From contig JAJEKV010000008.1 of assembly GCA_021234155.1 (NCBI GenBank), positions 9,326,445 to 9,390,444 of the forward strand: a DNA stretch of 64,000 nt. The letters are read 5' to 3'. The notes below the pieces were generated by a model. The model searched no databases, was not told where the DNA came from, and worked only from the letters and a program-made list of their open reading frames with translations. The position numbers and the translations under genes were made by a program. Source of the DNA: Isoetes taiwanensis (Eukaryota; Streptophyta; Lycopodiopsida; Isoetales; Isoetaceae). Shown piece by piece: positions 1-50,603 of the stretch (positions are counted from its first letter, which is position 1; every line of letters starts with the position of its first letter).

Positions 1-1755
1 ATACACCGCAACAAAATAAAGTAGCAGAACGCAAAAATCGCACCATCATGGATGCAGCTAGATCCATGCTTAAGCATGCAGGTTTGCCGAACAATTTATG
101 GGGAGAAGCGATCGCAGCTGCCTGCTACATTTAGAATAGGTTACCAACAGTTGCTATGAAAGGTGGAGTGCCAGAAGAATATTGGACAGGTAGAAAGCAA
201 TATGTGAAACGGTTTAAAGTCTATGGATGCCTTGCCTATATGATGGTACCGGAAGAATTAAGGAGAAAACTGGATGATCGAAGCATATATACCTTTCTGG
301 TGGGTTACGATGAGCAGACAAATGGTTACATGTTATATGAACTAGTCACACGTATGTTGGTATGGATATTGTATTTAATGAAAATATTTTATATAAGGAC
401 AGAAAAAGTCTGAGCCAGCATGAAGCAAATGAGTGGGTACCAACAGAATATTTGGAGAGTGATCAAGCAGATAATGAGGAAGAGACAAAGATCACAATTT
501 TAAAGGGCGATGAAGTCGACGTGGAATCAGAGAGTGAAGAGGATACAGAGACCAGTGCTGCAATTGAGGAAGCAGATGTAGAACCGGATGAGGTGTATGA
601 GGACGTAGAGTTCGATAGTGCATCTCATGAGCCAGGTACCGAGCTGGAGGAGGTGCATCATGAACCGGAAATCGAGCCAGAGGAGGTGCATGAGGTTGTT
701 GACACCAACAGTGCACCAGAAACTGGACCTCAAATGGAAGAAGGTAGTAGGAGAACTCGACATGATGATGCAGAACATCTAAAAGCCGAAGTTCCATTTG
801 ATACAAGATTATACAGCAGGGAAGAAAGTACTAGACCAAGGAAAACTAAAGTCTTATCTTGTATAGTAGAACCAGAAACAATGGAATAAGACTTGGAGAG
901 AAAGGATGCAGATCGATGGAAAGAGGCCATGCTGAGTGAATTAGATTCATTTAAAAGGACAAGCACCTATGAACTCGTGTCACGACCAAAGGATAAGAAC
1001 GTTGTGGGAAGCAAATGATTTTTAAAATTAAAAGAAAAGCAGATGGATCGATAGAGTGGTATAAGGCAAGGTTGGTTGCAAAGGGATATACCCAAGAAGA
1101 AGGCGTGGATTATAAGGATACTTTCTCGCCTATAGTCAAAGTAACTAGTGTGAGGACACTCCTTGCAGTTACAATACAGAATGACATGGAGATAAACCAT
1201 ATGGATGTTGAAATTGCATTTTTGAATGGAGATTATGGAGCAGCTGCAGGGCTATGAACAAGGTCAGAACATGGTGTGCAAATTGAAAAAGGCAATTTAT
1301 GGGCTTAGGCAAGCAGCCAGACAATGGTATTTGTGCATCAACAAATTCTTGATTTATGCAGGATTTACAAAATTAAAAACTGAGGGGAATTTATACATGA
1401 AACGAAATGGGGACAAATGTCTGATTATGGCTCTCTATGTGGATGATAGCGTCATCGTGAGCAGTGACATAAGTTTACTAAAAAATTGCAAAGCATTGCT
1501 GAATGGTCGATTCCAGATGACGGACTTAGGAGATTTGGAGAAATTGCTGGAATAGAAGTTCGCAGGGATAAAGAGCGGGGATTACTCTACCTTACGCAGG
1601 AGCAAAATATTAAAGGGGTATTGGTTAGATTCAGGATGCTTGAATGCAACCCAACGAGAACACCTATGGCTTCAGGAGTGAAAATTTGCGAAGACATGTG
1701 TCTCAAGACACCAAAGGATTCAAAAATCAAGTTCTCGAGTTTGCACAGCAAATAA
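1..1755 (+). mobile_element. Ty1/copia LTR retrotransposon fossil, partial (integrase end and reverse transcriptase)
   Basis: The window opens inside a Ty1/copia polyprotein. The end of the integrase is recognised by the motif NKVAERKNRTIMDAA at the left edge, followed by the usual 'FGCLAY' type stretch near 225. An acidic Glu-rich linker runs about 400-890. The reverse transcriptase covers about 1015-1750, with [22 protein letters not shown] and the catalytic box LYVDD. The integrase-RT order is that of copia. The 5' part lies outside the window, and I found no RNase H domain or 3' LTR before the similarity stops near 1755. The copy is broken, with about five or more interruptions, and looks clearly older than the copia copy at 9.8-14.6 kb. 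Confidence 0.9.
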
Positions 1756-2613
1756 GGTAAAGCTTTAATAGGCAAACTCGTATGATGTGCGAAAGTTTAG
1801 AAAGATTAGAAATCACGGATATAAGTGTAGAAACTAAAAATAAAATAAAAAGATAAAAAGGGTCTGTCATTTGCGGGCAGGGCAAAAAAGGGAGTGAAAA
1901 GTTCAACGTGCACGATTTAGGGCAAAAAAATTTCAGAGATACAGAATGTGGGCGACAGACCCCCCACCTGGAGTTCATGCGAAGGTCTGACAGAATGCTT
2001 GGGCGCGGCATGCGTTGCCTCTGCTCTTATCCTGCGTGAATAAAATTTGTTTGAGAAGTTTTGGCTGCTAGTATCTTGACCTTGCCGAATCTCTTTCTAT
2101 TTTATAGATGCTTGCTCTTTGTTTGAAGAAATAGCCTCTGGAGGCAACTCACCCCGCGTCTAGAAGCTCTGCGAGCATTTTGGTTGAGGCTAGGGCGCAG
2201 CATGAGTCGCCCTGTGCCGAAGCTCTGCCTAGATTTGCCATTTCATGCTTCTTAAATACAGGTTCGATCTAAGCTTTTTATGTTTTGGCTTCTAATCTTA
2301 GCTTATAACTTTAACTTTTACCTATAACTGTGAAAGAATAAGAATTTTGGGTTTGTTTCCTAGCTATAATGGTTTGGCCTTATCTGCTTCCTAAATACAG
2401 TTTGGGAACAACTTCATGCATATTTCACTGATTACTTGGTTTTGTCTTGCTTACTATCTATGGCCTCCAACTTTTTGCAGCTCGGCCTGATTCAGCTTAT
2501 TTGCTATTTATGGACTTCAACATTTTACAGTTCGGCCTGCTTAAGCTTGTTAAGTAAAGCTTCTACGCTTTTCCAATTTATATTGCTGACAGGTCTTCAG
2601 TCTGATCTATTGC
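1756..2613. other. Intergenic stretch, no gene recognised
   Basis: No long or recognisable reading frame is visible. The sequence alternates AT-rich parts with a moderately GC-rich part about 1960-2260 that has two similar pieces around 'gggcgcggcatg' and 'gggcgcagcatg'. It could be decayed transposon DNA flanking the copia remnant, but nothing specific can be supported. Confidence 0.5.
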
Positions 2614-2795
2614 TGTAGATAATTGAGTAATACTGATCTCAGATTCCAAGAGCTCAGATGTTATGTACTACTATAGATATATTTAGTAATACAGATCTCA
2701 CATTATAAGAGCTCAGATGTTATGTACTACTATAGATATATTTAGTAATACAGATCTCACATTATAAGAGTTCACATGTTATATACTATAATACC
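2614..2795. repeat. Tandem repeat, 59-bp unit, about three copies
   Basis: A unit containing 'gctcagatgttatgtactac' recurs at 2652 and 2711, and in diverged form at about 2770, giving an exact 59-bp period. The middle two copies are nearly identical and the outer ones are more diverged. The array is AT-rich and has no coding potential. Confidence 0.85.
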
Positions 2796-3097
2796 GTTAC
2801 AAGATATTGTATATAGGGGTTAACTACATACTGTTACAGATATTGCATATCATTTATACGACTGTTTTGATCATTTCATACTACAACCGAATATTATATT
2901 TAGACCTCGAACCTTGAATCTAAAATTGAAATTATTATACATACACATGATTCCTTATATTCACATTATTAATCACAACATCGCTACACTTACTCCATAG
3001 TATACTGAAAATATATCCGTAAGTATACTAACATGTCTATTTACAATTAATATGTCTACTAACAATTAGAAACCAGATTTTGTGAATCTCTAGCTAG

Positions 3098-4111
3098 TCA
3101 GAAGTACCCCAATATCTTTTCTCTTCGTATTCTCTTTGCCAAGTTCATATCCTTCGGCATAACAGTGACTCGTTTTGCATGGATAGTGCAGAGATTTGAC
3201 TCCTCAAACAATTGACACAACTCTACCTCAGCTGCTTCTTGGCAAACCCTCAGCATCATAGGAGTAACCCTATACTGCATTGTGAATTCCTGCATAGTTT
3301 TTCGCACTAGCATCTCCAAGGGGCCTATTCGAATCAAGAGATTAATGAATTGTTGAAAATGCCTAATTTCTTTTAGGACCCTGGAATGCTTTGAGTTTGG
3401 CCCCTGCTTTGTCGGTTTCTTCGGCTCTTCAGATCGAGGTGGGGGCTTCCGAATATCTGTTGGGGGTCTGCCCCCTTTTACAAATCTGGGAATTTTCAGT
3501 GTGCGATACCAATGATTATAGGCTATCCATTGTTTTATGTATGCACGGTAAATCTTGTAACTTCCTCCGGTATTCCCGCTCGTTCTGGAGGCTTAATAGT
3601 CTCTCCCCTGCTCTATACTTCTTATCTGATTTCCCATGGATAGGCCATTATGGATAAGGTGGTGGTGGTGCTATAGCTTGCTCCTGAAGATTTTGTTATG
3701 TTCGCTCCTGATGTTCTTGACCACGAACTACTAGATTCGAATTACCACCTATCAAGGCGGCGTTTAGATCGTCTCTCCCGTGAAACTCTCATCTTATTCT
3801 TCCGATTCCTCTGTAGCCACGTGTGTTACTTTTCGCTTACCCCGTCGTACTTCCCTCATTTTTTGCGATTATGAGACCTCTCCTTGCCGCAAATCTTCCT
3901 GTTCTTGTGATTCTGACTGCTGCTCTTCTGACGATGACTCAGCATAATCCACTAATACCACGGTCTCGTCTCCTTGTGAACTCCGTTCCTCGGATGAATC
4001 TTCGTTCTCGTATCTTGGATGCTTCTCAGGGTAAATCTACTTGCCTATGCTTACATGTCGAACACCTTCACGAGTTTTGTATTTCCTGGTTGTGGCTTTA
4101 GTGCATGCCAT
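3098..4111 (-). pseudogene. Decayed histone H3 variant, CENH3-like
   Basis: Read on the minus strand, an ATG at 4111 opens MACTKATTRKYKTREGVRH, which resembles the start of H3 (MARTKQTARK). An acidic Ser/Glu/Gln-rich stretch follows (about 4036-3850), then a Lys/Pro-rich stretch (about 3480-3400). A clear H3 fold core (about 3390-3098) has [13 protein letters not shown], a QEAAE helix, [15 protein letters not shown] and [12 protein letters not shown], ending in the extension [14 protein letters not shown] and NLLI are typical of plant CENH3, whereas canonical H3 has REIRKYQ and ELLIR. Loop 1 has the canonical H3 length, without the extra residues usual in CENH3. Several stops (first TAG at 4037-4039) and at least two frame changes interrupt the tail. 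The only candidate intron near the start would be 18 bp, too short. It is therefore probably a decayed or processed copy, although real introns in the tail cannot be excluded. Confidence 0.8.
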
Positions 4112-7100
4112 ATTAAACTGTTATAGAGTTGGATGAAAATTCTTAGAGGTCTCCTTTTGGAGAAAAGGTAACTCAGAATGGGTTAAGGAGCAGATTAAGG
4201 CAACATTATTGTGGCCAAATTAGGGTATTTATGGGGATACTTATGGGTTATTTATTCCAACCACTTTTGGGTTATCGTGGATTTGCACCACATTCCATCG
4301 AGGAGTCTATTTTGGCCAATTTTTTTGACCTACTTCTAGTGGAATATTGGCTTCATGCACAATTTTTCACCAAGGTTCGTGGTGACACACGCTCGTACCC
4401 GACTGAACTCCCCAAAACAAGAGCCCGGCCGACACCTGCAGCTTTTGAGAGTCAGGGCGACACCATTGACCCAGGAAGTGTCGAAATCATACCCGGCCCA
4501 CACGAAGTGACTGACTATAAGCTTAGCCCACGATGGGTCCCCAGTAGCTGCGCTCAGCAGGGACCTCCCTCCACTTTGCCACTGACCACATTACGTGGTG
4601 CTCAGTCACTCCATAGCGTCCGTAGCCAGGTGGGCTCTATGCATAGGCCGCATAATAATGGGAACTAATGGGTCTAAACTAGAAGCATCATTTACTAGTG
4701 GCTACTAGGTCTCTACCCCCCTTCCCCATATACAAGAGGTGCAAACATGAGATCAACCAACATCATATCAACATAATCTTGATAATAAATGAAAATAATA
4801 ACTAATCCTAATCACATACATCTAACTTATAGTCTAGGGTTCATTGATTAGGGTTCATGTTCAGAACAATATGTTCTAGAATGACTCTATTGCAATACTG
4901 GAATCTATTCAAAATACCTGCCCCTGATGTGCTACCAGTAACTCCCTGATTTTCCATCTCTAGCAAGTGGTTGGAGAAGATGATCCTCCTATGTTGCTGC
5001 AACTCAGGCTGTCGAAGACGGTCTTCGAGTCGGAGCTCTGATCGCGAACGGGTGGGTCTAAGGTTGGTGGAGCCAAAAGTGGCTCGGGTTTAGGCTTTAG
5101 CCTTTTATATGTTAGGGTTTACATGAATGTCACTTGGCTCCCATAGGTGTGTCTATGTGGCGGTATGCCTATAAGGTGAAGCCATATGGAAATGGCTTCC
5201 TATCTTAGGTTTGCCAAGTTACAGATAACTTAGTCATTTCCCCCACATTGGTTGCATACAAGTCTATTTATGTAGAATTGTATGGTGACGTAGCCATAAA
5301 ATATACGTACTTATATCGTTTATTTTAGGGGAACGCCACAGAACCCATCGAATATGGCATCTAGAGTTGGTGTTTTCTTCTTCCTTTTACAATTAGCTTT
5401 TCTGAAAATGTGGGTCTAATGCATGGAATAGACTGCCTACATCAAAAGAATGAGGTAAGGAGATCGGATTTGCAAAAAGGCACACGATTAAGAGCGTGCT
5501 TTTACTCAAACATTTTGAAGAAAGGGTAAGCGGGTCTGTAACAGTTATTCGCATTGAACAAATAGGAATACATAGGACAAGGCTGAATAAGTTCCTTTCA
5601 AAATGCTATAAGTTCCAAAGCTCTCCTTGGTTGTCTATCTATCACTATTTTCAACATAAAAAATGCAACCAAATCACTCACTTGGTTACATCTTCATTTT
5701 TGTAGTGTTGTGGTACTTGAAACCATCTTGAACCTGAAATTTTTCGAAATCCATTATTCTATATTTTAAGAATAATTTGCAAGTGTCTGCATTCTATTTC
5801 CTCTTCGTGTTATCCGGGATGTATATACCAGGACAAAAAAGGGCATGTGTTTGCTGTGATATAATAATTGTCTGCAAGAAGTGGGCTAGATTGGGCACTG
5901 AACTGACAGACAATAGTTTTGCATTTTATAGCTGAGAAAAGCACAGACCATTTTGAATGTCGTAATGGATGGAGTATCAACATGCAATGACGGAGACATA
6001 AAACAAGGAGATTTCATGTACAACCTGCAAATAAGTAACTAACTTATCTTTGACAATGCATTGAGAGCATACTTACAAAAGATGTGCTCCCCAGACTTCT
6101 CATATTTACAGTACATGTGTTTGGACCAAAGAACTAGAGAGTTGAGACATCTTCTGCAGCAAAGGTGTATGCATGGTTGCTCAAGATCTGTTATTCCTTG
6201 GAGAACTCAACAAGCCTAGTACATATAGAGAGCATTTCCATGAGATGGAGGAAAGGTTGGACTGTTAAATACCATGCCATAGACATAATACATAGAACGA
6301 AGGCAATCTTCTCTAAGTAGATGCCACTTAAAAAAACAAAGACAAAGAAATGCTAGACTAGTAAATGTGATAGACATCATCATTTTGCTTACAATATTGT
6401 AAGAACATCACTCAAGCTCAAAAGGATCTTGTTGAATGGATGTAGTGGATCTTGTTGCGTTAGTAAATTTATCTTCGGCAATGGCATAAGAGCATTTTTA
6501 CAGAGGATGTTCTCCCCTAATGTTTTTGGACCATCACGTTCTCTTCTTTAGAGCCCAACCTAATTATAAGTTTAGAGACAAAAAGAAAGAAACGGATATC
6601 CCATGACGTTTCGATATCCTTCCTTCCGATGTTCTTCAGTATCACATGCAAAATAAACTAGCAGTTCATGTTCAAAAAGATAAAGCAAGATACAGATAAA
6701 ACTAACAGGGTTCTTGGTGGGTTAAAGATGGAGGTAGTCTTTTGATTTAAATTCTAACCCATTCCAGTTCGCGACACAACCTAGAACATAATGTTCGTTA
6801 GAATTGAAGCCAAGCACACTTCAACGCACCTGGAAAATTTTATGCCATGCTCTGTTAAAGAGAAGGCACTTATGTTCTAAGTCATCTTTTATGCAGCCTA
6901 TGTACCTTCCGTGCCTTGCAGGAGTAGGACGTGAGCATGACCCATCCACGTCCATTTTTCAAGTGCCTACATATCATCATTCGAAAGATTAATACAAAAC
7001 ACTATTGCTAGATACATGTTATAGACAATAAAGCAAACATATTATCAGGAGATGACAAATTTTGGTCAACATGGCGGGTTATTGCTCCAACGGATGCAAC

Positions 7101-10090: not shown

Positions 10091-10935
10091 GATGACGAAA
10101 CTTCAGATGGATTTAAAAAATCTTGAGAAGCTGGACAGAACCAATGCAACCGTGTGGTTCTGGAAAATGCAAGCCATTCTTGAAGAACGAAGGTTTGGGA
10201 TGTTGTAAGTGGGGACGATCCAAAACCTGAAGTGACTGAGATAAGGAGTGAGAACGATGGAGAGATAGCTCCATCAGCTGCTGAGATTGCCCTCCTGGTT
10301 GCATGGAGGAAGAAAGATAACGGGGCCAAAACTTCTTTGATGTTTGGCCTCAAAGATGGACAGATTCCCTTGGTGAGATTGAAGGACACTGCCAAGAGGG
10401 ATGGGAATGCCTAAAAAGGACATTCAAGACGCACAACACTTCACAAAAATTGTTTTTGTGGCAAAGTTTTTTTAGTGCAAGGATGAAAGATGGGGAAGAT
10501 CCCACAGATCATATCAGCAATATGGTTAGTCTGGGAGATCAGCTAGTAGCCTTAAATCACATTATCAGTGATGAAGATCTAGCAATGGCGATTTTGGCAA
10601 GCCTACCTGGATCTTATGATTCGATTAAGCAAGCCATAGGATGTCAAGATGGCAGGCTTAGAAGTGAAGCTGTGATTGGTGCGATATTGCAGGCTTCACA
10701 CTGCTAAAAAGGGAAGATTCAGAATCTGCTTTTGTTGCTGAAGTCAAAGCAACAAGAAAGGAGGTCGAGTGCTGGACATGTGGAAAAAAGGGACATCTAT
10801 CAAGGAATTGTAGAAGTTCAAAGAAAGATGAAGAGAAGAAAGAAGACAAGGAAAAGGATGGAAAATCTAAACCATTTGTTTCAAAGAAAAGGTGGAGCAA
10901 TGGCAGAGGAAGTGGGAAATCAAGTGCTTATATGG
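10091..10935 (+). mobile_element. copia gag region with CCHC zinc knuckle (fossil)
   Basis: This stretch encodes a UBN2/gag-type polypeptide. It begins near MTKLQMDLKNLEKLD, with AILASLPGSYDSI around 10590-10620, a hallmark of copia gag. Then comes a zinc knuckle of the CX2CX4HX4C type (CWTCGKKGHLSRNC, about 10770-10815) and a lysine-rich tail. The gag shell would package element RNA, and the knuckle binds nucleic acid. It belongs to the element described at 9838-14625 and is broken. Confidence 0.9.
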
Positions 10936-13900
10936 TAGAAGATACCAAGGAAAAGCCTTGTTCCAGTGATGAAGAAAGTGAATCAGAAGCAAATATGGCT
11001 ATTGTAGAGCTATACGGGGAAAAAGATTGGAGGCAAGACTGCAAGAGATGGGCAGAATCTTCTGAAAGTGAAGAAGATATCAATGATGGACGTGAATGCT
11101 TGGTAGCTGAGATGCGAGAAGAAGAAATGATGGCTATGACAGCATCATCAACTCAAGGAAGGACTTGGATTCTGGATTCGACAGCCACACATGTAATGAC
11201 CCACTGTAAGGAATGGCTAAAAGACTTTAAAGAAGAAAAAAATGGCAGAAGTGTGAGTGGAATTGCAGCAGGCTTGCAGATAGCAGGAATAGGGACCATG
11301 ACTTGCAAATTTGCAGACATGGCAAGGGATTTGCAACATGTACTATATGTCCCTGGGCTAGGGAGAAATTTGATGTCACTAGCTAGGCTCACAGATGTTG
11401 GGATCACAGCCTGCATCAAACAAGATGAAATGTTATTATTGAATCCAAGGGAGCAGGTAGTAGGAAAAGCAAGCAGATCAGGACATTTGTACAAACTATT
11501 TGAAGGGAAAAAAGAAGAAACACATGCCTTGGTAGCTGCTGGACCAGACAGAGATATACAACTATGGCATAGGAGATTTGGGCACATAAATGAGAACAGA
11601 CTGAAATTGTTGAAGACAAATAGCATGGTGACAGGAATGGAAATATCAGACAAAGGGCAAATTGGCTTGTGTGAAGGATGTATTTTTGCCAAACATCATC
11701 AGAAGAAAGGGAAAAAGCAAGGGACTCGGGCCAGCAAACCCTTACAAATAATTCATATGGATTTGAGCGGGAAGATGCCTGTCAAGACATTTGGTCAAGC
11801 TGCCTATTTCTTGGTAATCGTGGATGATTATACAAGGAAAACTTGGGTATTTCTGACTGAAAAGAAGAATCAAGTGCTGGGGATCTTTCAATCGTGGAGG
11901 AAGCAAGTAGAGAAGGAGGCAGAATGCAGTATCAAAGCCATTCGAAGTGACAATGGAACTGAGTTTGTATCTAAAGAATTCAATGAATGTCTGCAGCAAC
12001 AAGGTATACAAAGGCAACTTGCAAATCCGTATGAGCAATTTCAAAACGGCGTGGCCGAAAGAAAGATGAGAACTTTGAAAGAGTGTGCACTTAGTATGCT
12101 GAAATGGGAAAAGATCAGATCAGTTTTGGGGAGAGGCGATTCTCACAGCCTGCTACTTACAGAATAGAGCTCCCACAGCAGCCATAAAAGGGCAGACACC
12201 TGAGGAAATGTGGAGCGACATTAAACCGGATGTCAGCCACCTCAAGGTATTTGGATGCACAACAATGCATTTACCCCAAAGGAGCTTCGAAAGAACAAAT
12301 TGGATGACAGAGCCCGTAAATGTATTTTTTTGGGATACTGTTTAGAAGGGAAAGGGTACAGGTTGCTTGATGTAAGAACAAGAAAAGTGATTAGGACTAG
12401 TAATGCAAAATTTGATGAATATGGGGTTGCTCAAGGAGACGAAGTCCAAGGTATAGATAATTCAGACCTATATCAGGAATATACTAATCTATGGGTTGAG
12501 ATACAAGAGAGTCAAGAAGCCACAGGTGACTATAGTGCAGGTAATGGCGTTGCAGCAGAACAGTTGACTGACCAAGCACAAATACATGAAAGCAATGAGG
12601 TCTTGGAAGCACCTTTGGAAGAATCAGGCCAACCCATGAGAAGAGATGATCATAGGTCATCAGAAATGCATCTACGGAGAAGCTCGAGAGGTCATCATCC
12701 CACCACGAAATGGTTGGAATGGAAAAAGTCCACAGGCTCATTAGCATTGGCAGCAGTAAGGCAGTATGAACAGGAATTTGAGCAAGAACATGGGTCATGG
12801 TGGGACAGCGATCTGGAAGAAAAGTGCGCATGGGAGTGCTTCAAAGCTGAACTGTTAGAGCCTATGACTGTGCAAGAAGCAATGACAGGGTCAGATTCGG
12901 AGAAATGGTTAAATGCCATGCAGGAAGAGATGAAGGCTATGCAACTAACACATGCTTGGGATCTTGTAGTTCTGCCCCAAGGAAGAAAAACAGTGGGTTG
13001 TAAATGGGTGTTCAAAGTAAAACATGCAAGTGATGGATCTATTGATAGGTATCGAGCACAGTTGGTGGCCCAAGGTTTCTCCCAGCAGCAAGGGATTGAC
13101 TTTGACGAAACATTCTCGCCAGTAGCAAAAATGACCTCTATTCGCACTGTGTTAGCTTTGGCAGCTCAAGAAAATATGGAAATACATCAAATGGATGTTA
13201 AAACAGCTTTTTTAAATGGTTTTTTAGATCAAGAGATATACATGAAGTAGCCTGAGGGATTCGATCAAGAAAAAGGATTGGTATGCAGATTAAATCGGGC
13301 ACTATATGGATTGAGGCAAAGTCCAAGGGCATGGTACAACAGGATTGATCAGTTTCTTCAACAATTAGGTTTTGTGAGGTGTATTACAGAGTGGAATGTA
13401 TACTGCAGAAAAAAGAGGCAGCAAACAGTCATTGTAATAGTCTATGCGGATGATCTCATCATAGTTGGCAAGGGAATGGCTGGGATTAATTCGACAAAAA
13501 TTGCACTGAGGAAGGAATTTAGAATGACAGATTTAGGGGAGATTAAAACATGTCTAGGATTGCAGGTATCCAGGGATAGAACTCACAGAACTCTAGTCAT
13601 TCATCAGCAACAGGCTATCCAAAAGATGTGTAGCAGATTTGGTATGAAGGGATGTGTGAAGAAAGACACTCCAGCAGTGCTAACTCCGAGACTAAGCAAA
13701 GAAATGGAACCAAAAACCAGCAAAGAGCATCTGGAAATGGATAAGATACCTTATAGAAATGCAATGGGATGTTTGATGCATACCATGGTCAGCACAAGAC
13801 CAGACATAGCTCAAGCAGTTGGAGCGGTGAGCAGGTACATGTCTAATCCTGGATGGCAGCACTGGAAAGCGGTAAAAAGAATCATCAGATATCTTCAAGG

Positions 13901-14400
13901 GACGGATAGTATGGGTTTAAAGTTTCAGCCTGATTCGAACTATCCTGCAGTAAGGCTAGTGTCATTCGTTGATGCAGACTGGGCAGGGGACCAGGACAAT
14001 AGAAGATCAACTACAGGGTTTTCAATTATGCTCCATGGTGCTGCAATTGCATGGACAAGCTCTAAACAAACCACTGTCGCCCTATCATCCTGTGAAGCAG
14101 AATACGTTGCAACCTCGGCTGTGGTTAGAGAAACAATCTGGCTGAGGCAGTTTTTTGATGAGATTGGATATGCTCAGGATAAGCCAACTGTGATCTACAA
14201 CGTAACAAAAGCAGCATAGCTCTGACAGAAAATCCTATTCATCACAGAAGGTCGAAGCATATTTCTATACATCATCATTTTACTAGGGAAAAAGTGGTTG
14301 ACAAAACCATCATCATGGAATATATTCCAACTGAAGAAATGCTTGCTGATTTGCTGACCAAACCATTATGTATACAGAAATTTCAGTATCACAGGAATTC
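10936..14400 (+). mobile_element. copia pol region: protease, integrase, reverse transcriptase, RNase H (fossil)
   Basis: An acidic linker leads into the protease (about 11150-11480). The integrase follows, with its HHCC zinc domain (LWHRRFGHINENRL, then CEGC at about 11670) and catalytic core (RSDNGTEF, about 11945). A second linker leads to reverse transcriptase from about 12950 (AQLVAQGFSQQQGIDFDETF, then LYGLRQSPRAWY and VYADDLIIV). RNase H follows, with DADWAGD near 13975 and KQTTVALSSCEAEY near 14080. The order protease-integrase-RT-RNase H defines Ty1/copia. The region is broken in a few places, so no active polyprotein is expected. Confidence 0.95.
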
Positions 14401-27166: not shown

Positions 27167-28299
27167 TAACTAAATATTAACATTTTTCTTTATTTCTTAA
27201 CCCTAGCGTGCATTATAGAGGGCGCGACCTCGGCCTGCAGCTGCCGGATCTGGCCTCCAGGCCATCAGATCAACGCTAAAACATTGTGGCTTCTCCCGAT
27301 TTTGCTGGCAAGGAGGATTCCAAGCCATTTCGGCCAGTTTGTGGCCCTAATCTGGCGGTTTTGGGTCAGTTCTTGGCCACCAAAACCCAGTTCTTGCTGC
27401 CAGATCCTGCCTCGAATCCCTCAATTCCTGCTTGCTTATGCCAATTCGACCTCACTATAGTACAAATCGGCCAGTTTCAGAGCAATTTCCATGCTTTCCA
27501 AGCATCCAAATCGGCAAGATTATGTCATTCTGCCAGCAACATGCAAAGGAAAATACTGCCGTCTTGGCTAGTATACCTCTTGATTCTGCCTTCTTTGCAT
27601 ATTTTGGCCCTTTAGATGCCCAAATCGATCCATTTCAGGTGGCTTTTCATGATTTCTCATCACTATACTTCATCAAGATCATGTCGTTCAAATGGCAACA
27701 TGCAATAAGAGATATTGCTGCTTTGCTGGTTTTTGCTTAACAATTTAATCTTAATCTATTCTTTAAGGATTCTAGCTAATCTAAGCTATCTCAGCTTCTT
27801 CTATCTCAGATTGAAATTATTAACATGATAGAGAATATTAAATCGGTTAATATGCTCGCTATCCATTAACCATGCATGCCTATTCATGACCATGTTCATA
27901 TGATTTAACTCCAAGTTTATTATTAAATCAACACAGCTATACAAACACTAGAAAACCCCAGGTGTAAGGCTTGATGGAAATCCCGCTTGCTTCTTCTGCA
28001 CTCCCAGCAACGCTCCCAGATCTCTGCACGCAACTCGCTCCTTCAGCAATCCATCTGCAATCTATCTCCTTCCGAATGCTTCATCATCACATAAAAGACT
28101 TCTTTCCCATAGAAAACTCCTTTCCAAGAAATCAAGAATAATATTGTTGCGCTTATATACAATGCCCTTGCATGCTTGCATGCACACACTGCATGCATGG
28201 ACACATTGCATGCATGTATTCCTAGCACATAATCATTAATTTTACCATTGAAACTGCACTCTTATATAATGGCAACGTTACTTACATCTTAATGTTGGT
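27167..28299. other. Intergenic stretch with a TGCATGCA cluster
   Basis: No gene is recognised. The frames at 27286-27740 hold no known domain. At about 28164-28216 the motif tgcatgca recurs ('cttgcatgcacacactgcat' and 'attgcatgcatg'). This is a short palindrome cluster that resembles plant RY elements but has no gene nearby to serve. Confidence 0.5.
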
Positions 28300-31200
28300 G
28301 CTAGGTTCCTAGATCCATTACACAAACTAGAATTGCTAGACCTGGGGGAGAATATGATGAAGTGGAAGGAACATGGGTCAATGATTCTAATAGGGGACCT
28401 AAACGCCAGGACAGGTCAGGAACAAGCACAAAACACGAGCATGGACGAAGTGAACGGACGGTGGACACATACTGCAAAATCACAGGATTGGAAAAGAAGC
28501 ACAGAAGACAAGGCAGAGGTCAACGCCAAAGGTGAACTACTGCTTGAAGTGTGCACGGCAACATGGGTCATCATAGCTAATGGGGTACATAAATGGGAAG
28601 GATCAGGGAAATTCATGAGCCAGAATGCACAGGGGAGAAGCATAGTAGATTATGTGATAATGAATGACCAAGCAGTGGAGAACACCTCAAGCTTCGTGCT
28701 GCTAGATTGGCCGACGGGAAAAAGGGAAAGTTATAGACCCATGCAGTTAACATTCAGACGGGGCGAACAAGCTCAAGTTGATAACACAGAAGAAAAAGAG
28801 AAGGCAAAAGTGAAAATACATTTTCAGGGAAAATATGCAGATACATTCATACGATCTATCAGAGCGGAAATGGGAAAATGGGAATGGGGAGAACATAGAG
28901 CAGACGAGAATGGAAATGTGCTTAATGACATGATGGTGAGGGTAGCAACAGAGGTCTTTGGAAAGCGGAAGAGACCCAGGAGGGGCAATGCTTTTAAGGC
29001 CTCTGTCTGGTATGATGAGGAATGTAGGAAACAAAAAAGAAAAGTCAGAGCGCATATAGGTAGAGAAACATATCAAACAGAAAGAGCGACATACCTAAGG
29101 ATGCTGAAGTCAAAGCGAAATAAAAATTTGGTACAGCATCAATGGGGGCTGGCTAAAATGCTACAAACCAGGAATTTTTGGAAGGGATTTAGAGGAAAGG
29201 GAGAGGGAAATAGGAAAACCGAGAATATGCAGAACAGCATCAGAGCAACCGGATGGGAGAAATACCTTGAGAAACTATATAAGACGGGGGCACCCCCAGT
29301 GCCAATACCCGCATTACAAGAGATGGATAAACCGTGCTTCAGGATGCAAGAGGTAATGGCAGCACTAAACAGGATGGCCAATAACAAAGCCCCAAACCTC
29401 TATGGACTGACCGTGGAATTACTAAAATGTGCGGATACAGCAATTGGGAAACAGGTCACCGACATATTTAATGGCATAATCTGTATGGGGCTACCAAATA
29501 AATGGGCATACAACAGGGTAATACCTCTACACAAAGGAGGGAGCAGAGAGGAACCTGGGAACTATAGGACAATAATGGTGAGCTCCATCTTCGCAAAATG
29601 GTTTGGGAAAGTGCTGGACAGTAAACTAAACCAGTGGGCAGAAACAGGAAACCCGAGGGCACAAGGACAGCAGGCTTCAGGCCAGAACACTCAACCCCAG
29701 ACCATCTAGTAACCCTTCGGATACTAATAGAACAGAACAGAGCCCAGGGACGGAAAGTAGTATGCTATTTTGTAGACTTTAGAAAAGCATTCGACACAGT
29801 CCCGAGGGAAAAGCTCCTACAGAGACTAATAGATATGCAGGTACCAGGGGAAATGGTGGGGGCAATTGCAAGACTATACCACAAGGTATATGCAAAAATG
29901 GAACAGGAAGGGCAGGCAATAAACTGCGATACAAGAGTTAAACAGGGGTGTTCCCTATCCCCGATGTTGTTCGGAATATATATAGATGCATTACAGGGTT
30001 TCATAGCGGAACAACAAGGGGACAAGGACGCTTCGACATTAGGAGACACCAAGGTATCTATAATGTTATATGCTGATGACCTAAGCATGATGGCCACAAA
30101 GAATAAAGGGATGCACAGATTACTAAAGCTTCTATCTGCGACAGAATGGGACAAGAACAGGCACAGACCTTTCAGGTACATGGGGACAAAATTAGAGGAA
30201 TCAAAAGAATACAGATATCTGGAATACGACGCACACAGCACGGGAAAATGGGCTAAAGGTGCGGATGCAAGGTTCCAATCAGCCATTGGGAGCTATTTCA
30301 TTATGAAAAAAATCTGTAATAAAAGTAGAATAATCGACTGGGAGATCAAGTGTTATTTGTTCAGTGCAGTGGTTGCAACGACACAATTATATGGGGCTGA
30401 AGCATGGGGACCAGGGCTAACAGAAAAGGAATGGGATAAATAGGAAGGGATCCTCAGACAGTGGCATAAACAGGAATTTAAGGTGCGGGCAAACACACCG
30501 CTAACAGTCATGATATATGAGACAGGCCAGAAACCAATGGAGATGAGAGCATGGGAAAGGACTATCAGATATCTAATCAAAGACAATGCAGGGAGTCACC
30601 CAGGAAAGCTGTCAAGTATTGCAATCAACGAGTCAGCTAAATCGCACATCGTCAGAAGCAGCAGATGGTTTAAAGAGGTAGCGATGTGGACCAGAGAAAT
30701 GGGAATGAACTTGAGTGATCTAGTGAACGAGGCAAAATGGAATGAAGACTGGACAGATAAGGCTACATGAGCATGGCTGCGAAAACACACCGGACCCAAG
30801 ACAATCTGGCTAATGACAGCCTTCAATCCAGAACAACAGATAGGGCAACAGATGTACAGAGACAATCTGCTAGGGAAGGCCAGGAGAGATGTCTTGGCGA
30901 GATTTAGGATGGGGAGCCACGATCTAAGAATTGAAAAGGGCAGATGGAGGAAAATAGAAAAGGATGATCGAATATGTAGAATCTGTGACACTGGAAAAGT
31001 AGAGGATGAGAATCATCTGCTCAATGAGTGCCCGATGTACGGTGACATCAGAAAGAAATACAGAAACATAAGATGGGCCAGTGCACACCCTGATGATGAG
31101 AGTAGAAATAATGAGAGACCTAGCAGATGCAATCCAATGACAACCAGGCATCGAGAGACACACAAAGAAAGAGGGCTTATAATATGAACCGCCCAAGAGG

Positions 31201-34886: not shown

Positions 34887-37643
34887 ATGGCGAAGAAACG
34901 AGTGCATATTTCCGAAGGGGACGTTGCACTTCTGCTTAAAAGGTCAGTCGCTTTTCCCCTTATTGTTTCCGAACCAGGGGCTGCCGCATTTTGTCCTAGT
35001 TGAAATGCTTATCCATTTTGATTATGCCGTGTACCCAAACTAAGCAGCTTTTCGATAACCTCTACTGGAGCCCAATCATGTTTAACACTCGCAAATCGCA
35101 TGTATGTCTGAAGATGCAGGAACTTAAACGACCCACAAGAAAAGATGCAGCTTATACAAGGACTCGCCAAAGGCTAAGCACATGTTGCAGCAAAGATACC
35201 TTAGATAATTTGGTTTAAGCAGTCTTTTCCCCGAGCCTTCACTGCTAACGAAAAGGAACTTAATTCCCTTTCAAGATGATTCAGGTGGTCTCAAGGATAC
35301 CCCTAGGTGCCTGGCTGTGAAGTCTGCCAAAGCGGCGGTATAAAAAAGTTGACATGCACAGTTGATTGACGGATTACAACCACCTAGATACAATCATACA
35401 TGGGAGGCTTGAATTGAAAGCCATTTATGATAAAGAATAGCTGTGTGATCAAGCCTTTCTTCTTTCATAGACACCCTTCTTTAGGACAATATTTTGTAAA
35501 GGCAAATTGCGCATTGTTCCAACCGTCAAAGGAATGGCAGAAGCATCAACTATAGATTGAAAAATCCTTATTGTGAACATGTATTCTGTGAACATCGTTC
35601 TAGAATTTATTCTGAACATGTACTGACATGCAACGCCAATGCACTTGCAGGTATAATTTAAATACTCTCTTAACAGTTCTGGAGGAAATATCAAGACATC
35701 AATCTCAAAGATTTAATTGGGATGTTCTTGCTCGGACTTCTAAGAGCGGTATTAAGAGCCCAAGGGAATTTCAAGCTTTATGGCGGCACCTTGCTTATCG
35801 TCATGAACTGTGTGAGAATGTTGGAGAAGATGCACGACCTTTGGTTGACTTTTTATTCCTTCTTGCTTCCCTTTTACGAGGCTAGCGTTCTGCATGCTAA
35901 TAATGTGATGAATATTTCAGGATGACGAGAGTGATTTGGAGGTCGAACTTGAGCCCTTCCCTGCCATAAGTGCAGAATATTCAGCAGAGGTGGCAGATTA
36001 TGTGAAGGTAGCATAGAAAAATACATGTCACTTTTGTTAATGCTGGACTTGATTCCTTGATTGCAATCTTTAATTCTGACTTGCAGGAATTGAGTTCATC
36101 AAAAACAGCATTGTTAAGGAAACATGTCAATGATGCTAACTGGGATAGCAATGGCCAGAATGTAGGGAGCACACACATTACATCAGGCTCCGGCACAAAA
36201 GCACTACCCCAGGATCTGGCTTTTGATTCCCTACATAAAGGCAGTGCAGTAAGTCAGTCAGAAAGGAAAAAAAGAAAGCTTTGGACACCAGAAGAGGACC
36301 AGGAGCTTATCACTGCCATTGAAAAGTTTGGAGAGGGAAATTGGGCAAACATTGTGAGAATAGCCTTCAAGCATGATCGAACTGCATCACAGTTATCACA
36401 GGTGCATTTCAATTCCAGGATATTCTGAACCTTCAAGATAGTGTTCTTTTTTTACCTCAGCTTTGCATTTTATTTTATGGTTGTAGAGGTGGTCATTAAT
36501 TAGAAAACGGAGGGAAGGCACTGGAGGAGGAAGTCTGACTCCTTCATCCAAGCCTCCTGGACCGGGTGTTTCAAATGGTTCTGTTATTGATACCCAGCAA
36601 TCAAAAGGTAATGAGAATGAGAAGTTTTGGGAATTTTCATAGGATATGTCTAATCATCAAGGGTGTTGCCTAAACTTATAGGCATTTTGGCTTCAAAAGT
36701 GGGAATTCAGAAAAGGGTGCAGCCAGGTCCCCGAATCTCCCCTCTTCCATCACAGGTCAAACAGGTGGGAACCAAAACAGCAACAACATCAGGCAGTTGG
36801 CTTGGTTCTCCAAATGCAGGTGTAACTACTGCAAGTGATACACAAGCCCCATGCCCAACAACTTCGGTGCCAGCTAAACATAGTACCTCGTTGCCACGTA
36901 ATACTTCAGTCCCTGCAGGTGGAAGAGGATGTACAAAACATAATTTAGGACCGGACCCCATGGTTCAAGCTGCAGCTGTAGCAGCTGGTGCTCGAATTGC
37001 TCCTGCTTCTGCAGCTGCATCTTTACTAAAAGCTACTCAATCAGGAAATGTGGTGCATATTGGACCTGATGGCGTACCGTTACCAAAAACAACAGCAGTA
37101 TCCACAATTGGTACTCCCAGCTCTGCAAGGCATAGTTCAAGCACAGCAGGTTCAAGAGCATCTCCTGCAGTTGTACATTACATACGAACTGGGTCAGTTG
37201 TTGCTCCTGCCATGATTTCCGCAGGTGGACAAAGGCCAGGTCAGCCAAAGACTTCGTCTGGAAAGGCATCCACTAAGGCAAATGTTATAACGAAGAATAC
37301 AGCTCTCCCTTGCTTGGCTGTGAAGGCTGGATCAAGAGCCCATGGCACTGCAAAAGTTTCCAACCCAGTATCTGAATCATCAACTCCTACTGATGTTATT
37401 GATCCACTGTTTTCATCAGAAAGGTCATCAGAAACCAAACTTAACGTCCTGCCATGTAGTTTAGCCCGTGAATGTGATGGCATGGAAGACCTGTTTAAAT
37501 CAGGGGCAGGGGATACATTAGGCCAATCTTCTTTGCCGCCAGCATATACTGGCACCGTTACATTGTCATGCTCCTTTTCTGAAGCAGTATGTCAAGAAAA
37601 TTTCAGATCTACATCACCTCCAGAATTTAGTTCAGAAGGATAG
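34887..37643 (+). CDS. DRMY1-like: DRMY1-like single-MYB/SANT protein
   Basis: Six exons keep one frame with GT-AG borders: 34887-34942, 35651-35843, 35921-36007, 36087-36401, 36487-36607 and 36682-37643, giving 577 residues. The N-terminus starts MAKKRVHISEGDVALLLKR. It continues with FNWDVLARTSKSGI, LWRHLAYRHEL and the acidic DDESDLEVELEPFPA, all diagnostic of the Arabidopsis DRMY1/DP1 pair (At1g58220, At1g09710, named from memory). A single MYB/SANT repeat occupies about residues 177-226, with its spaced tryptophans (RKLWTPEEDQELITAIEKF, GNWANIV, RWSLIRKRR), and is split by intron 4. The long last exon is Ser/Thr/Ala/Gly-rich and holds DPMVQAAAVAAGARIAPASA. In Arabidopsis DRMY1 supports normal protein synthesis and robust timing of organ initiation. 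The same role here is an inference. No defects are seen. It is convergent with the FHA gene. Confidence 0.92.
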
Positions 37644-38325: not shown

Positions 38326-41300
38326 CTAAGAACTCATCTCATCACGATTATCTACGTTATCATTTCTGTTGCACTCCTCTTCCGTGAAATCATCAGAGTC
38401 GGATGCATCCTCGGTGCCTGTTGGTTGGGGGGCAACAATATTAAGCATTTCATGCAACACCTGCCTTTCACTACTAAAGGGCCGAAGTCCAGGAGAGTTC
38501 TGACTCTCTAAAGTATTTGGCAAGTCTCCTGCATCTTCTCTAGTAGGGCTTTGACTTGCTCGTACTCTTTGACTATCACTAGTTGCGACTACACTTGCGA
38601 TAATTTCAACTTGATTCACCTCTAGCTTGTCAACAACCCTTGCATTGTTGCCCTCATCACTATGTGATGAATCACTATTACCATGCTCAGATGCTGGCGT
38701 GCTTATTGCCCAACTTCCAGCAACTTCTGAAGCTAATAGGTCAGCTGTACACATGCTTCTTACTTGTCGTCTGCTACTTGAGTCAGCACCACGAATCCGA
38801 GATGTTCTCCTTGAATTGCTTCTCTGGCTATCCTTTTCAGAATGGTGGGATACGCCATCGTGGGATCTAGTCCCTGGGAGGTCATTTTGGCTCTGAAAGG
38901 CAGGCGTACCAGGAGACCGGGCTTCAGCATACTGATAGTCTTGCCCTACCGGTACTGTAAAAGGTACCACTGGGGTCTGCCATTCTTCATCTTCATCCAG
39001 CATCATAGTCTCCCCACCCAGGGGAGCATTTTGAAATCTGTCTCTAGGCATCTCTTGCTCCGTATCTTCAACCACCGTATCTACATTATGATATTCTGCT
39101 GTATTGCGGTCAGATCCTACCGAACTGGAAGCATTTCTAGCTGAGGTGCTTTCCTTTGGTCTTTCAGCATCTAGTATCTGTGTAGCACCCACATCATTCA
39201 CAACCACTGAAAGAACCTGTTTGCCCCCAAGGCTAAGCTCGTCAACTCTAAGAATACTTGTACAATCACCAGCAGTAGCATCAACTGTATCAGCGGTAGG
39301 TATTACTGTCTTTTCATCCTCTGTCTCACAATCCATTTCATCCTGCGTATCACCCTCTATCTTAGATCTTGCGGAGGTTCCTTTATCACTATTAGTGACA
39401 TTGTCTCCTTGTCCACCTCTTTTTATCTCCTTTCCCTTACCGTGATGTTGACTGCATTCCCCAAGAAGCTTCTCACTTCCTTTATCAGAAGTTATGCTCT
39501 TTGATTCATCATCGCTTTGATAGTTAGTAGCATTTGGATGATCATCACTATCACCATCTTCTAATGTTTTAAGCATTGCTTTCAACTGCTCCTCTTGCTG
39601 CTTCTGCAAAAGTGCAATTTGTTCAGCAGTGGAGTGGAATGCACGCAGTTGTGTTTCCCTGATACAAGACATAAACAATTAGAACAACAATAGGGAGAGG
39701 ACCTTAACAATTCATGGACATTACCTCAGCACAAGCCGTTCTCGAGCACCTGCCAGCCTTTGCTTTTCCAACTTGAGATTGTTAATGGCCGTTTCCATTT
39801 CCACCTGCAAATCCAATACTTTGTTTCCAGCGACTTCTCTTGCTGCCTGGATAAATAGACAATTGACATCATCCAGCATATTATACTAATTCAAAAAACA
39901 CTAGTTAATTGGAAATACACAAGTGACTTGGAACTGACTCCATTACCTTCTCGCCATCCAGTTCTCTAAATGCTTGGTGTAGCTGCTCTTCTGCATTGAG
40001 TATCCTCTGCTCATGAAGACAAAATGTGTTTCAGAAAATTTGTTGGACACAACAACGTTTTCACATTGTTGTCCTCTCATGAACCCTCCAATCTAAAGAC
40101 AACATAAAGTGAACTCTACGGCTAATAGCTAGTTCATTTGCGTGAAAAGTGGACCAAAATATTCAGCTTACAAAAAAAGCTAAACCAACCTCTTTCAATG
40201 CTCCTGATGTGTTCTTTTCTTCGCTTAACTGGATTTCTAATCCTCTAACAATATTCTCCACCTTCATTCGAACCTCCCTCTCCTCTTCCTACAAAGAAAT
40301 GCATTTAATCAAAAGAAATTAGCTTCAATAATAAATCCTCAAAAGGGATCTGCAGCAGTTACCAATTTTGCACGTAAACTGTCGACGAGCATGCTTTTCT
40401 CCTTGTCAGCGTCCTGGAAATAGAGAACTTAATAAGTCCTGGAAAGACATTGTTTGTCACTTCAGAAGGACGGGAGACTCGCCTGGAGCGCGTTGACCAC
40501 ATCAAGATGCTGTTTCTGTTGGCGGGCAGCAGCTTCAGATAGACGCTTGAGTTCTTCAGCTGCTTCTGCACGCAGCCTTTCTATAGCTGTTTTATGTACA
40601 CTCTCTGCCTCTTCCTGTTCTCGCCTCCATTGAATGCGTTTTTCTTCTAGCTGCTTTTCAAGGTCACTAATAGTGCCTTTATGACTGCATGACAAGCATA
40701 CTCTTACCATCATTCTCCATTATAATATATCAGATTTCTTCGCCAAAAAACATGAGACGCAGCTTACAAAGCAGTCTGTTGCCTAAAAATTAAGTACAAC
40801 TACACAGGCATAATGGTAGCATCACAACATGTTGACAGACTTCTCATAAGTAGATGCTGAAAAATACCAGCATCAGGTAGGCTGTGAACGTTAAAGGCAG
40901 AAAGATGCTGATACACATGGGATATTCAAGGTTACCTTTGTATAGTCTCCTCTGCTTCTACACGTGATTGTGCGGCAGCAGATAGCCGTTGATTAAGGTC
41001 TTCAATCAGATTCTGCTGCTGAGCAGACTTTGCCAAGCACTCATCTAGCTCCATTCCTTTCTTAGAGATTCCTAAACGAAGGTCGTCAATTTGGCTTGTA
41101 AACGCCGCAGTTAATGATGATCTAGCTTCTTTCATGTCCTAAATAGCAACGAAATACATTAACAGACTTCATACAACCAAAGTCAAGCTAACTATAGCAG
41201 AAAGAGTACTACAAACTCACGTACCTGTTCATGCCGAACCTCAACAGCACGAAATTCTCCACGCATTTTTTCTATAGTCAGCAAATGCTCCTCTAACTGC

Positions 41301-46464: not shown

Positions 46465-49400
46465 ATGAGAATGAGAATGATTTTTTTATCGTCCACTGAG
46501 GTCAATCGGCCTATGCGACCCATAAGGAGCGCAGTAAACTTATTACTGTCCGGGTTAAAAAAACCCCGCCCCGAAGGGTTTTCGAGGGAAAAAAACGTGG
46601 CAGTAATAAGAATGCTGTCAAACTGTACAAGTATACATCAATGTATATATACATGTCAAGTGTGTGCCCGAGGACATAGCTGATCTCGCATGTCCATAAC
46701 CTCCTGAAGGTATGATCCCAGCATCTGTACGGATGCTGTGCTCAATGTCACATGTAACGGCTGGCCAAGCCTAACCAACTCATAAGATAGCGTTCAATTT
46801 GATCATATCTTTGGGCAACTTTGAAGGGTATGAGATTCATCCTCAATGACTCCCATTTGGCGGCGTTGACGAGCTCCGCCCCGGCGTGGCTCACCAATCC
46901 ATCCGCCTCTCAATTCGAGATGATGTGCCCCGTCGCGCGAATGGAGGCAATGAGTCTGCGCCTTTTCATGGGCAAGTGGGTACGCGGTAGCATTGCGGGC
47001 CTCGTTCCAATGTGGGATTTATGTGGCGGTGGTAGTGTCTTTGTCTTGACATGTTCAAGGGCATTGGCATCCCAAAGCTTGATGAGGAAGCAAGCGTCCA
47101 AGATATTGCCTCAAGCTATGGCGATCGCCTCTGTTTACGGTATGCACCCATGTATACGCACATTCCATCTAGCAAACCATTGAGCTCTCTTTTCCCTCCA
47201 AAGCCCGGGCCTTGGAGGCTGCTGCGGCTCCATTGCCATGATAAGCTAGTTTTGGGAGGCGAGCATCGTCCCATATTGACCACCTTCGAAAAAATAGGCA
47301 ATGTTGCGATCAAGGGCCGCCTCACGAAGAGGCAAGAATCTTGTCTCTACGGTAGAATTTGATATGGGACTGTGGACTTCACCCCTAGTGCTCGTACTAA
47401 GAAGGCTTTACGGACTGCTCCAAGTCATTCCAAGTAGCAAGTGATACTCTTTGGGCCCCATACTTCCACCCCAGATAAAAGGGCAGGGCTCCACTAAGAC
47501 CTTGAGCAGGTGTGACCGATGGGCCCAATCATATAACTCGCTCTATGACTATTGTTTTGCATTGCATATAGTGCCTTCCACCTGCCGTCACTTTCGTAGC
47601 CGTATGGATGTGTCCCATTGCATAGTAGAAGGAAACTCCACTCCCAAATATTTGTATGTGGATGCAACTTCCACATTCCGCCTCGAATGGCGGGGAGGGG
47701 ACCCTCGGTGAAGATGATATGAAAACCACCTTAGTCTTGGCGGTTGACGCCATATATCGATTAAACTGGCGAGTGTGTCCGGGCATCAAGATGTCGTTGC
47801 ATGTCTCTTGGTGTATAAGCTAGGAGGTCCACATCATCGAAGATATATTAACCGTCCGATGATCCGATAGAGAAGGTGAGATCCATCGCCCCATTATCGC
47901 CAAAGCCCGACTCTCCAATTGATCAATGTAAAGCCCAAACAATGTTGGGGAGAGAGGGCATCCCCGGCGAACCCCGATACTACTATTAAATGGTTGGCTT
48001 GTCTGCAACCGGCAGAGCATCTTTCATTATAGCACGTACATTGCATTACGCAAATCTACAGAACCCCATTGCTGCGCCTCTTGCCCATAGTTTTTCCCCG
48101 AGGCACGTTGTCAAACGCCTTCGCGCAAAATCCACAAAGCAACAATATAGATCCCGACGCGGTTCCTGGCGTCTTCAATCGAGTTCGCGAGCGTGAAGAT
48201 GTGGTCAATGGTTGAGTGTCGAGTCCGAATCCCGCCTGGGTGAGGGCACGCACCTCTGGCGCCTCTGCCGCCAAATTGTCAACCTGCCGCTTCGAGAATC
48301 CCAAAGAAGCGGTTTTGCAAACACCGAACCCGACCATGATTGTTCGGTAATTGGTGGGCAAAGGCGGGGGGTCCCGCCTTATAGATGGGAACAACTCTGC
48401 TATTGGTCCATTCGCACGGAAACCTACCTGTAATGCCTTCTTGAACAAGGCGGTCAGCACTGGTAGTATGGACGGCCCTGCCCACTTAAGCAATTCTGCC
48501 TGCATACCATCCAAGTCTAGGGCTTTCCCATTGGCAAGACGCTGTAAGCCTTGTTCCACGTCCGAATCTGTGATTTCCAAAGACGGGCCTTCTTGCAAGG
48601 GTAATGTTTGTATGTGCACCACGAGGGTCGTATAGTCATTGCAAGTATTGCCTCCAATTTCCGGGGAGTGATATTCCCTATGGGCTGTACTGGCTTTCTA
48701 AGAACCCTTCACCAGAAGGTCCTGGGGTGACGTTCCAAGAGGTAAAACATTTCCCTTTGATGCGCTGCAATGTACCTGGCTTTCTTAGCTTTAAGGAAGA
48801 TGCGGTACTGTCTGACTGCATGTGGGCGTAAAGCAGGGTCTATGACTTGGCGGAGCCAGCGTTTGTGTTCCTTGCACTCTGCATCAAACCTTGATTACGT
48901 GGGAAGGTTGTGTTCCTGGAGGTCCGTCGCGGGCGGCTTATCCCAAAGCACCTCTCTGCCGCAGTCCTAAGCACATCAGTCAGGCGGCCTGTCTGTTGCT
49001 CTAGTGTAGGATATTGCAAAATTTCTGCCAGGTCATCTATAAGCATCTGGGCATAAACCCCTGCATGTTCATAATCCAATCGCAGCTGAGGCATGTGAGG
49101 AGTTGTTGCACCGGGGGTTCGCACAACCTGCCAAGCCAACTTCAAGTAAAGTGGTAAGTGGTCTGAGTCGATCTTTTCATCCCTATTAGCTGTTCCCACC
49201 TGAAAGTGCCTGACGACATGCATATCCTGCTCATGTACCAGCACATAGTCCACCACACTAGATCCACCCCCCTGGTTTTCCTGCCTACAAGTGCTCTTGC
49301 GGGTGGAAGGCCACTGTGCCAGTCCATTGCAGATTACCAGGTCAAAGATACTGCAGAGCAAAAGCAACTGTCGACCATAGCGCGTGACCTGATTGTCATC

Positions 49401-49529
49401 TGATGTCCGTGGCCAAGCTCCTTCCGCAGGATGCAACTGCAATATATCATCAGTCAAGGGATCAAATCTCATGGGTTGTTCTACCCCAGTGCGCGCATTG
49501 AAGTCTCCAAGGAGAGTGAAAAAGAAAAA
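46465..49529 (-). mobile_element. 5'-truncated LINE of the stem-loop family, (CATTCT)n tail
   Basis: On the minus strand the element opens inside the endonuclease (LLGDFNARTG near 49510), then SSVVDYVLVHEQD and SDHLPLYLKLAW. A reverse transcriptase follows: LANGKALDLDGMQAELLKWA near 48520, NYRTIMVGFGV and GCPLSPTLFGLYIDQLE near 47950. A C-terminal part matches the copy at 57.2 kb. The 3' end holds the shared core 'ccctcgaaaacccttcgggg' in an imperfect stem (about 46530-46610) and a hexamer tail (cattct)n at 46465-46480. ORF2 is broken by many frameshifts and stops. Near-identical sequences of about 44 bp flank it (46421-46464 and 49530-49574). They are best read as a long target duplication, which fixes both ends. 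Confidence 0.9.
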
Positions 49530-49574
49530 GGAAATAATAAATTGCCACAGAATGTGAAAAAAGCAATTGTAAGA

Positions 49575-50603
49575 GAAAGTGAAAAAAATAGGGGCGGCTG
49601 GGCATCTCCTATTTTTGAGGGCAATCACCTTGGGGAGGTGAGGAATTGGTACACCTAAGTATTTGGATATTGTAGGATAAAACCAGGTGGACCCATAAAG
49701 GATCCACCCTTTCGGTGTGTGTACGCTTGTTAGTACGACACATGGTTACTACCATATATTGAAAGCTATGGATAACGCCATATGAGATACCACGATTAAT
49801 GATACCCTTAAAGGGATTAGCAATTCCCAAAGACCAAAAATACCAATATGGTATTTCTGTGTCATCCTTTACTAATAAGCACTTTTACATTCAACAAGCT
49901 CCAAGTTTTGTGAAAACGCACAATCCTACTAATGGATTTGCCATTGAAAAACACATTCTCTTTGCAGATTGAAAGCAAATAGCAATTGTAACCAGAACAA
50001 CACATAAGAATTAGGGCACATGACACCAAAAAAGAAGGGCAAATCCAGAAGTGTTTGTCAGCAGAAAGTGCATGTCTTCAAGCGGGCCGCCAGAAAAAAG
50101 CATGCATAATTCCAAAACATACATACTTCGAATTTCACTATAATTTCATCTCGGAAAGTATACATATACATAATTCCAAAATCGCCCCTAATAATTATAT
50201 ATATATAGGGTATTATAGGATAAGGTATTATGTTTAAGCAAAAAATGTGGTATTGTCTCAGGAAGAAAGAAAAAAGGGTGGCATCATCTCATGAAAACCT
50301 GGTTGTATAATCATACTTTATTCAAGTCTACCGAGGCTTTCTTGTGACTGCACACAGATGCACAATCCTACTAATGGATTTGCCATTGAACAACACATTC
50401 TCTTTGCAGATTGAAGGCAAATAGCAATTGTAATATATATGATCACTTCAGAACATCGTGCTATTTCCAAACAAAGATAGATTCTTCGAAGTTGAAAATT
50501 AGCGATAAAAGAAGGATTACATCACCTTCCAAGTGGGATAGTATTCGTTAGTTACTCCGTCAGCAACAAGAGATGCCTTTAATATATTTTCTATTGTTAT
50601 CTG
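49575..50603. other. Intergenic stretch with a 77-bp direct repeat
   Basis: The segments 49918-49994 and 50359-50434 are direct copies with about three differences (both start gcacaatcctactaatgg and contain 'cattctctttgcagattgaa'), 441 bp apart. No gene is recognised. Confidence 0.75.

Follow-up and report, generated by a model that had tools for sequence, protein, structure and literature searches.

A histone H3-family locus in Isoetes taiwanensis, probably a dead copy of a strongly diverged H3 variant gene

Results

A diverged H3-family locus with CENH3-like features

A real H3-family locus occupies positions 3098-4111, on the minus strand, of the 64,000-nucleotide stretch of Isoetes taiwanensis DNA analyzed here (the window), and this locus is probably a dead copy of a strongly diverged H3 variant gene. 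It runs from an ATG at 4111 to a TGA at 3100-3098, just as a sequence-only reading of the same DNA had described it, with an H3-like N-terminus and a histone core that share strand and overall frame. A dead copy is supported by the N-terminus and an acidic block, both far outside the window background and both on the core's strand and in its frame, by ten histone-frame stops ahead of the core, and by splice sites that are no better than chance. The remnant also displays several CENH3-like features, namely Q68E, F84V, T107S, the motif KEIRHFQ and a C-terminal extension, and a link to CENH3 is possible on these sequence grounds. It is not filed as a CENH3, however, because it does not have the extended loop 1 by which CENH3 is usually recognized.

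The last open block of the locus (3592-3101, minus strand, 164 codons) carries the histone core and contains no stop codon. This block matches the Pfam Histone family PF00125 (E 8.5e-22; 78.1 bits against a cut-off of 26.4) and H3 chains of the PDB (E 4.5e-24), and a PDB search with the core returned 174 sequences at E <=0.01, the best 60 of which were all labelled as H3 or an H3 variant. Together, these matches place an H3-type histone fold, and with it membership of the H3 family, at the locus. The fold itself extends from LKEIRHFQ to RREKI (3113-3376, minus strand) and is preceded by a basic, proline-rich stretch (3377-3457, minus strand) that aligns to H3 RKSAPATGGVKKP..., while 45 of its 88 residues are common to plant H3.1. 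Core identity is 43-48% to five H3 references and 33-45% to eight CENH3 references, the latter comprising four plant sequences (all angiosperm) and four non-plant sequences. The structure predicted from the single sequence was uninformative (mean pLDDT 44).

Loop 1 is not extended, in line with the sequence-only reading, and spans 26 residues, counted from R(E/K) to QEAAE, in H3 and the query core alike. The C-terminal extension KILGYF was likewise recovered, with four residues, LGYF (3101-3112, minus strand), lying past the H3 end. The motifs QEAAE and IHAKRVT are present in the core but do not discriminate between the families, as QEAAE occurs in plant H3.1 and IHAKRVT in fission yeast Cnp1, which is a CENH3.

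PMC4359364 names as CENH3 diagnostics an extended loop 1 and the lack of Gln 69, Phe 85 and Thr 118 (printed numbering). The query loop has H3 length, and 8/8 CENH3 references have a longer one; Gln 68/69 and Phe 84/85 are both absent (Q68 to E, F84 to V), and the N-terminal tail is highly divergent, as in CENH3, and would be shorter in one-intron models but still unlike that of H3. T107, which we take to be the diagnostic threonine position (printed as 118 in that paper), is replaced by Ser, and T118 is kept, as it also is in human CENP-A. The motif KEIRHFQ matches Arabidopsis CENH3. The argument that a best hit to H3 speaks against CENH3 was rejected, since Arabidopsis CENH3 also finds H3 chains among its best PDB matches, with two H3/CENP-A chimeras ranking ahead of them.

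An H3-like start, an acidic block and a broken frame

The claim of an H3-like N-terminus was borne out, as MACTKATTRK (4082-4111, minus strand) agrees with MARTKQTARK at 7/10 positions and outscores every other one of the 127,940 decapeptides that a six-frame translation of the window yields; the runners-up are five decapeptides that score 5, with none scoring 6. Further along the histone frame lies an acidic Ser/Glu/Gln block (3872-4036, minus strand), which would be part of the tail if the locus is unspliced and part of the intron in one-intron models. Its best 45 codons are 69% S/E/Q/D, the highest share among 453 stop-free pieces of at least 45 codons (set-aside ORFs excluded), the second-ranked of which reaches 42%, so the Ser/Glu/Gln richness noted earlier is real. 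Two tail pieces searched against Pfam matched no family at E <=10. The long acidic tail that had been claimed fared less evenly, with the composition of the block upheld and the single open frame contradicted by ten histone-frame stops between 4111 and 3593; that this whole stretch was formerly tail is also less sure, because one-intron models would excise most of it.

The first of these stops is a TAG at 4037-4039 with 24 codons ahead of it, the next is a TAA at 3869-3871, and the histone frame is then lost across 3593-3796, where stops fall at 3796, 3766, 3754, 3751, 3733, 3730, 3673 and 3595 (all minus strand). A frame offset by two (3531-3788, minus strand) is somewhat coding-like, with TAA at 3698 and 3650, and would be a weak sign of either a frameshifted tail or a decayed intron. 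Its codon signal, from about 3781 to 3572, scores 7.3, a value that noncoding DNA attains in 5% of 4620 windows and in 67% of 110 strand-blocks; given that the same maximum arises in so many noncoding strand-blocks, a second coding frame from the codon-bias scan was rejected. G+C is 0.40-0.52 across 3101-4100, against 0.27-0.31 across 2601-3100. Of the marks of a processed pseudogene, the flanks of the locus hold neither a poly-A run nor a target-site duplication longer than chance allows (9 bases, matched in 151/200 shuffles), and so point to no particular copying route. No second copy was found within the window by blastn, and tblastn gave only a 15-residue match (E 0.068).

Intron models and anatomy of the locus

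Three anatomies of the locus can be considered. The tail may have spanned the whole stretch, 245 codons from the ATG to LKEI if unspliced and with the acidic block included, and then been broken by stops and two frameshifts; or an acidic tail may have been followed by an intron that has since decayed, possibly one starting at the donor-like site at 3840, a reading that leaves the stops at 4039 and 3871 in place. We favor these two, one of which probably applies. In the third, a single intron from 4040-4071 to a point within 3592-3377 would excise the acidic block along with all ten stops, leaving a living, short-tailed gene, which seems unlikely, if still worth weighing.

That no intron fits was itself rejected as an argument, as phase-matched models exist, including several with a phase-2 donor at 4040. 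In all, 32 phase-matched one-intron models avoid the ten stops, and the tail that they leave is shorter and non-acidic. Donor 4040 figures among the best of them with three exon starts (3380, 3584 and 3485); donor 4054 pairs there with 3403 and donor 4065 with 3474, and this last model gives a basic tail near H3 length. With rough splice-site matrices, the top one-intron model, which joins donor 4040 to exon start 3380, has a score of 1.2, and models that retain the acidic block as an exon score lower (best -3.2, four sites).

Relatives and genomic surroundings

Scans with the window core found no relative in the genome-contig or viral-contig collections, neither of which is a plant collection as such, and no relative with the same tail was found in them. 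A four-row alignment scan yielded no match in viral contigs and 10 H3 loci in bacterial bins among genome contigs, presumably stray eukaryotic DNA. Two of the 10, L009 and L010, resemble eukaryotic H3 genes and have a lengthened loop 1; their contigs, binned as bacterial, are presumably stray protist DNA, and in L009 MPKD co-occurs with the longer loop. In a literature search for CENH3 pseudogenes, the word CENH3 appeared in no title among the matches listed.

Directly downstream of the histone remnant, a 59-base unit is present in three tandem copies (2622-2798), and a G+C-rich segment (0.57) lies at 4401-4600, ~300 bases upstream of the ATG. No long flanking repeats were detected in 1-6000, only short pairs. 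Elsewhere in the window, a Copia-type retroelement on the plus strand (10668-14219) retains, within a single stop-interrupted frame, parts of a zinc knuckle, gag-pre-integrase, integrase and reverse transcriptase. Open pieces resembling non-LTR retroelements, some recognized by eye, were observed at 28270-30443 (plus strand) and at 48056-49745, 57265-58726 and 59364-62345 (minus strand), with a firm reverse-transcriptase match at 60948-62345 and weak endonuclease matches, below cut-off, at 28270-29706 and 48843-49745. The Copia and LINE-type pieces are compatible with a plant host, though they do not prove one. Two open frames of 329 and 450 codons (36654-37643, plus strand; 38326-39678, minus strand) have no Pfam match at E <=0.01, are not obviously retroelements and are possibly host gene exons.

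Trees and CENH3-state counts

In a 14-row tree the query was placed next to four plant CENH3s (support 59/72), with the H3 alternative not rejected (AU p 0.384), and in a 20-row tree it was placed next to an H3 group that includes kinetoplastid H3s, L009 and L010 (79/72). None of the placements tested on the 20 rows was rejected (AU p 0.341 for the plant CENH3 clade, 0.344 for all CENH3, 0.449 for non-parasite H3s), and removal of Drosophila CID from this set gave p 0.384 (plant CENH3) and 0.42 (H3). The query branch, at 1.5-1.7, is among the longest in the trees, and its place shifts with sampling. The proposed CENH3 link thus received a grouping with plant CENH3 from one tree and a grouping with H3s from the other, each with weak support.

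States found in CENH3 and not in H3 number 15/42 in the query against 8.0 expected (z 2.93), compared to 11/26 (z 2.80) in Trypanosoma, 8/18 (z 1.80) in Leishmania and 10/31 (z 1.49) in Giardia, which served as canonical H3 controls, and z 3.8-7.8 for the eight known CENH3s, each left out in turn. Measured against the four plant CENH3s alone, z was 2.52 for the query, 2.67 for the Giardia H3, 2.9-3.9 for the four non-plant CENH3s and 7.5-9.9 for the plant CENH3s themselves; against four PDB-checked CENH3s it was 3.26 for the query and 3.53 for the Trypanosoma H3. On these values the query is not an ordinary angiosperm-type CENH3. As the canonical H3 controls score alike, the state count is unable to separate a remote CENH3 from a divergent H3, and the sharing of CENH3 states, being non-diagnostic in view of the kinetoplastid and Giardia controls, was rejected as proof of CENH3. 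This ambiguity agrees with PMC2939574, in which tree position could not assign uncharacterised divergent H3s to an H3-like or a CenH3-like function.

Discussion

Two of the alternatives to a dead variant copy concern the state of the gene. A live gene, in which a ~450-650-base intron would contain the acidic block together with the stops and the frame loss and the tail would be of at most about H3 length, has the 32 stop-free models in its favor, as well as donor-like sites at 4054 (top 2.5%) and 3840 (top 1.1% of window GTs); it would account for the intact last 164 codons, and introns occur in angiosperm CENH3 genes, with 7 exons in carrot and rice (PMC4041860). The best splice pair was, however, equalled or beaten at 1405/4000 random window places, so the splice signals are neutral, and the acidic block counts against a living spliced gene because the most S/E/Q/D-rich of 453 pieces would then have fallen by chance in an intron and in the histone frame. 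The intact core counts for such a gene or for selection on the core, since five stops spread by susceptibility alone would all lie outside the core with a probability of 0.08, and a stop-free core beside a broken tail would fit introns or selection. Overall we hold a live gene to be unlikely; because stop-free spliced models exist, deadness and the long acidic tail are less certain than the sequence-only reading held, and a relic of an unusual H3-family gene is still the most likely origin. A canonical H3 gene copy that simply decayed is, in our judgment, very improbable. The top identity, 48%, is indeed to an H3, but the acidic block is absent from canonical H3, and when neutral decay of H3 to the same identity was simulated, 272/3000 runs were stop-free (274/4000 in an earlier, simpler simulation) and just 5/3000 were also as unevenly conserved, which led to this candidate being disfavored. 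The unevenness in question is a match to plant H3.1 at 24/57 fold positions up to alpha2 and at 21/31 afterwards, the L2-alpha3 end being better kept (Fisher p 0.027, with the cut at 57 picked after viewing the alignment). A measure that speaks against constraint is the conservativeness of the mismatches to H3, which does not clearly exceed that seen in neutral runs free of stops (358/4000 as high). Taken together, the sequence comparisons suggest that the core probably diverged under constraint and not by decay. For fern CenH3, PMC5024113 gives a low mean omega (0.067, 8 sequences), which suggests constraint in that group.

The remaining alternatives concern what the gene encoded. If the locus is a dead copy, its parent could have been a divergent non-centromeric H3 (e.g. 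germline or tissue-specific) in which the CENH3-like residues are convergent, a real possibility that falls short of probable. The H3-length loop 1, the kept MPKD and IHAKRVT, and nearest tree rows by path length that are H3s all point this way, as does a canonical Trypanosoma H3 that equals the excess of CENH3 states (z 2.80 vs 2.93); LKEIRHFQ, Q68E, F84V, T107S and the C-terminal extension, on the other hand, jointly recall CENH3, and the 14-row tree sets the query beside plant CENH3, with the weak support of 59/72. A further reading, in which this gene or the one it was copied from encodes a living centromeric H3 of the lineage that does without the loop-1 extension, is targeted via other features and may or may not have the acidic tail, is improbable.

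Returning to the dead copy, the parent protein would have begun like H3 and carried an acidic Ser/Glu/Gln block, translated as part of its tail, as well as a basic pre-fold segment and a short hydrophobic C-terminal extension. Having kept the H3 fold, it presumably paired with H4 and packaged DNA, and its divergence would have arisen while the protein was under selection; the copy, with 24 codons before its first stop, would now be inert. The chances that this parent was of the CENH3 type, replacing H3 in centromeric nucleosomes, appear roughly even, and in that case the aromatic C-terminus may have been a contact for CENP-C. If true, a centromeric H3 without an extended loop 1 would inform both the question of which regions of the protein define centromeres and the design of CENH3 searches, and a lone, probably broken copy with no known live relative serves here as a pointer rather than proof.

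Compared to known systems, the remnant shares with CENH3, CENP-A, Cse4 and Cnp1 the H3 fold, a divergent tail at the N-terminus, the missing Q68 and F84, Ser at 107 and a short C-terminal extension, and it has KEIRHFQ as in Arabidopsis CENH3. Unlike CENH3, it has no loop-1 extension (present in 8/8 references), no Trp at the loop-1/alpha2 edge (present in 6/8) and no RYRPGTVAL ahead of alpha1. With canonical H3.1 and H3.3 it shares loop-1 length, IHAKRVT, MPKD and the MA.TK.T.RK start, but it differs from them in the 45/88 fold residues common to plant H3.1, the acidic block upstream and the four extra C-terminal residues. The divergent canonical H3s of kinetoplastids and Giardia are not CENH3 and yet have CENH3-like states in similar excess; their folds are much less diverged (53-62 of 87-88 residues against 45/88 in the query), and loop 1 of the Giardia H3 is longer than that of the query.
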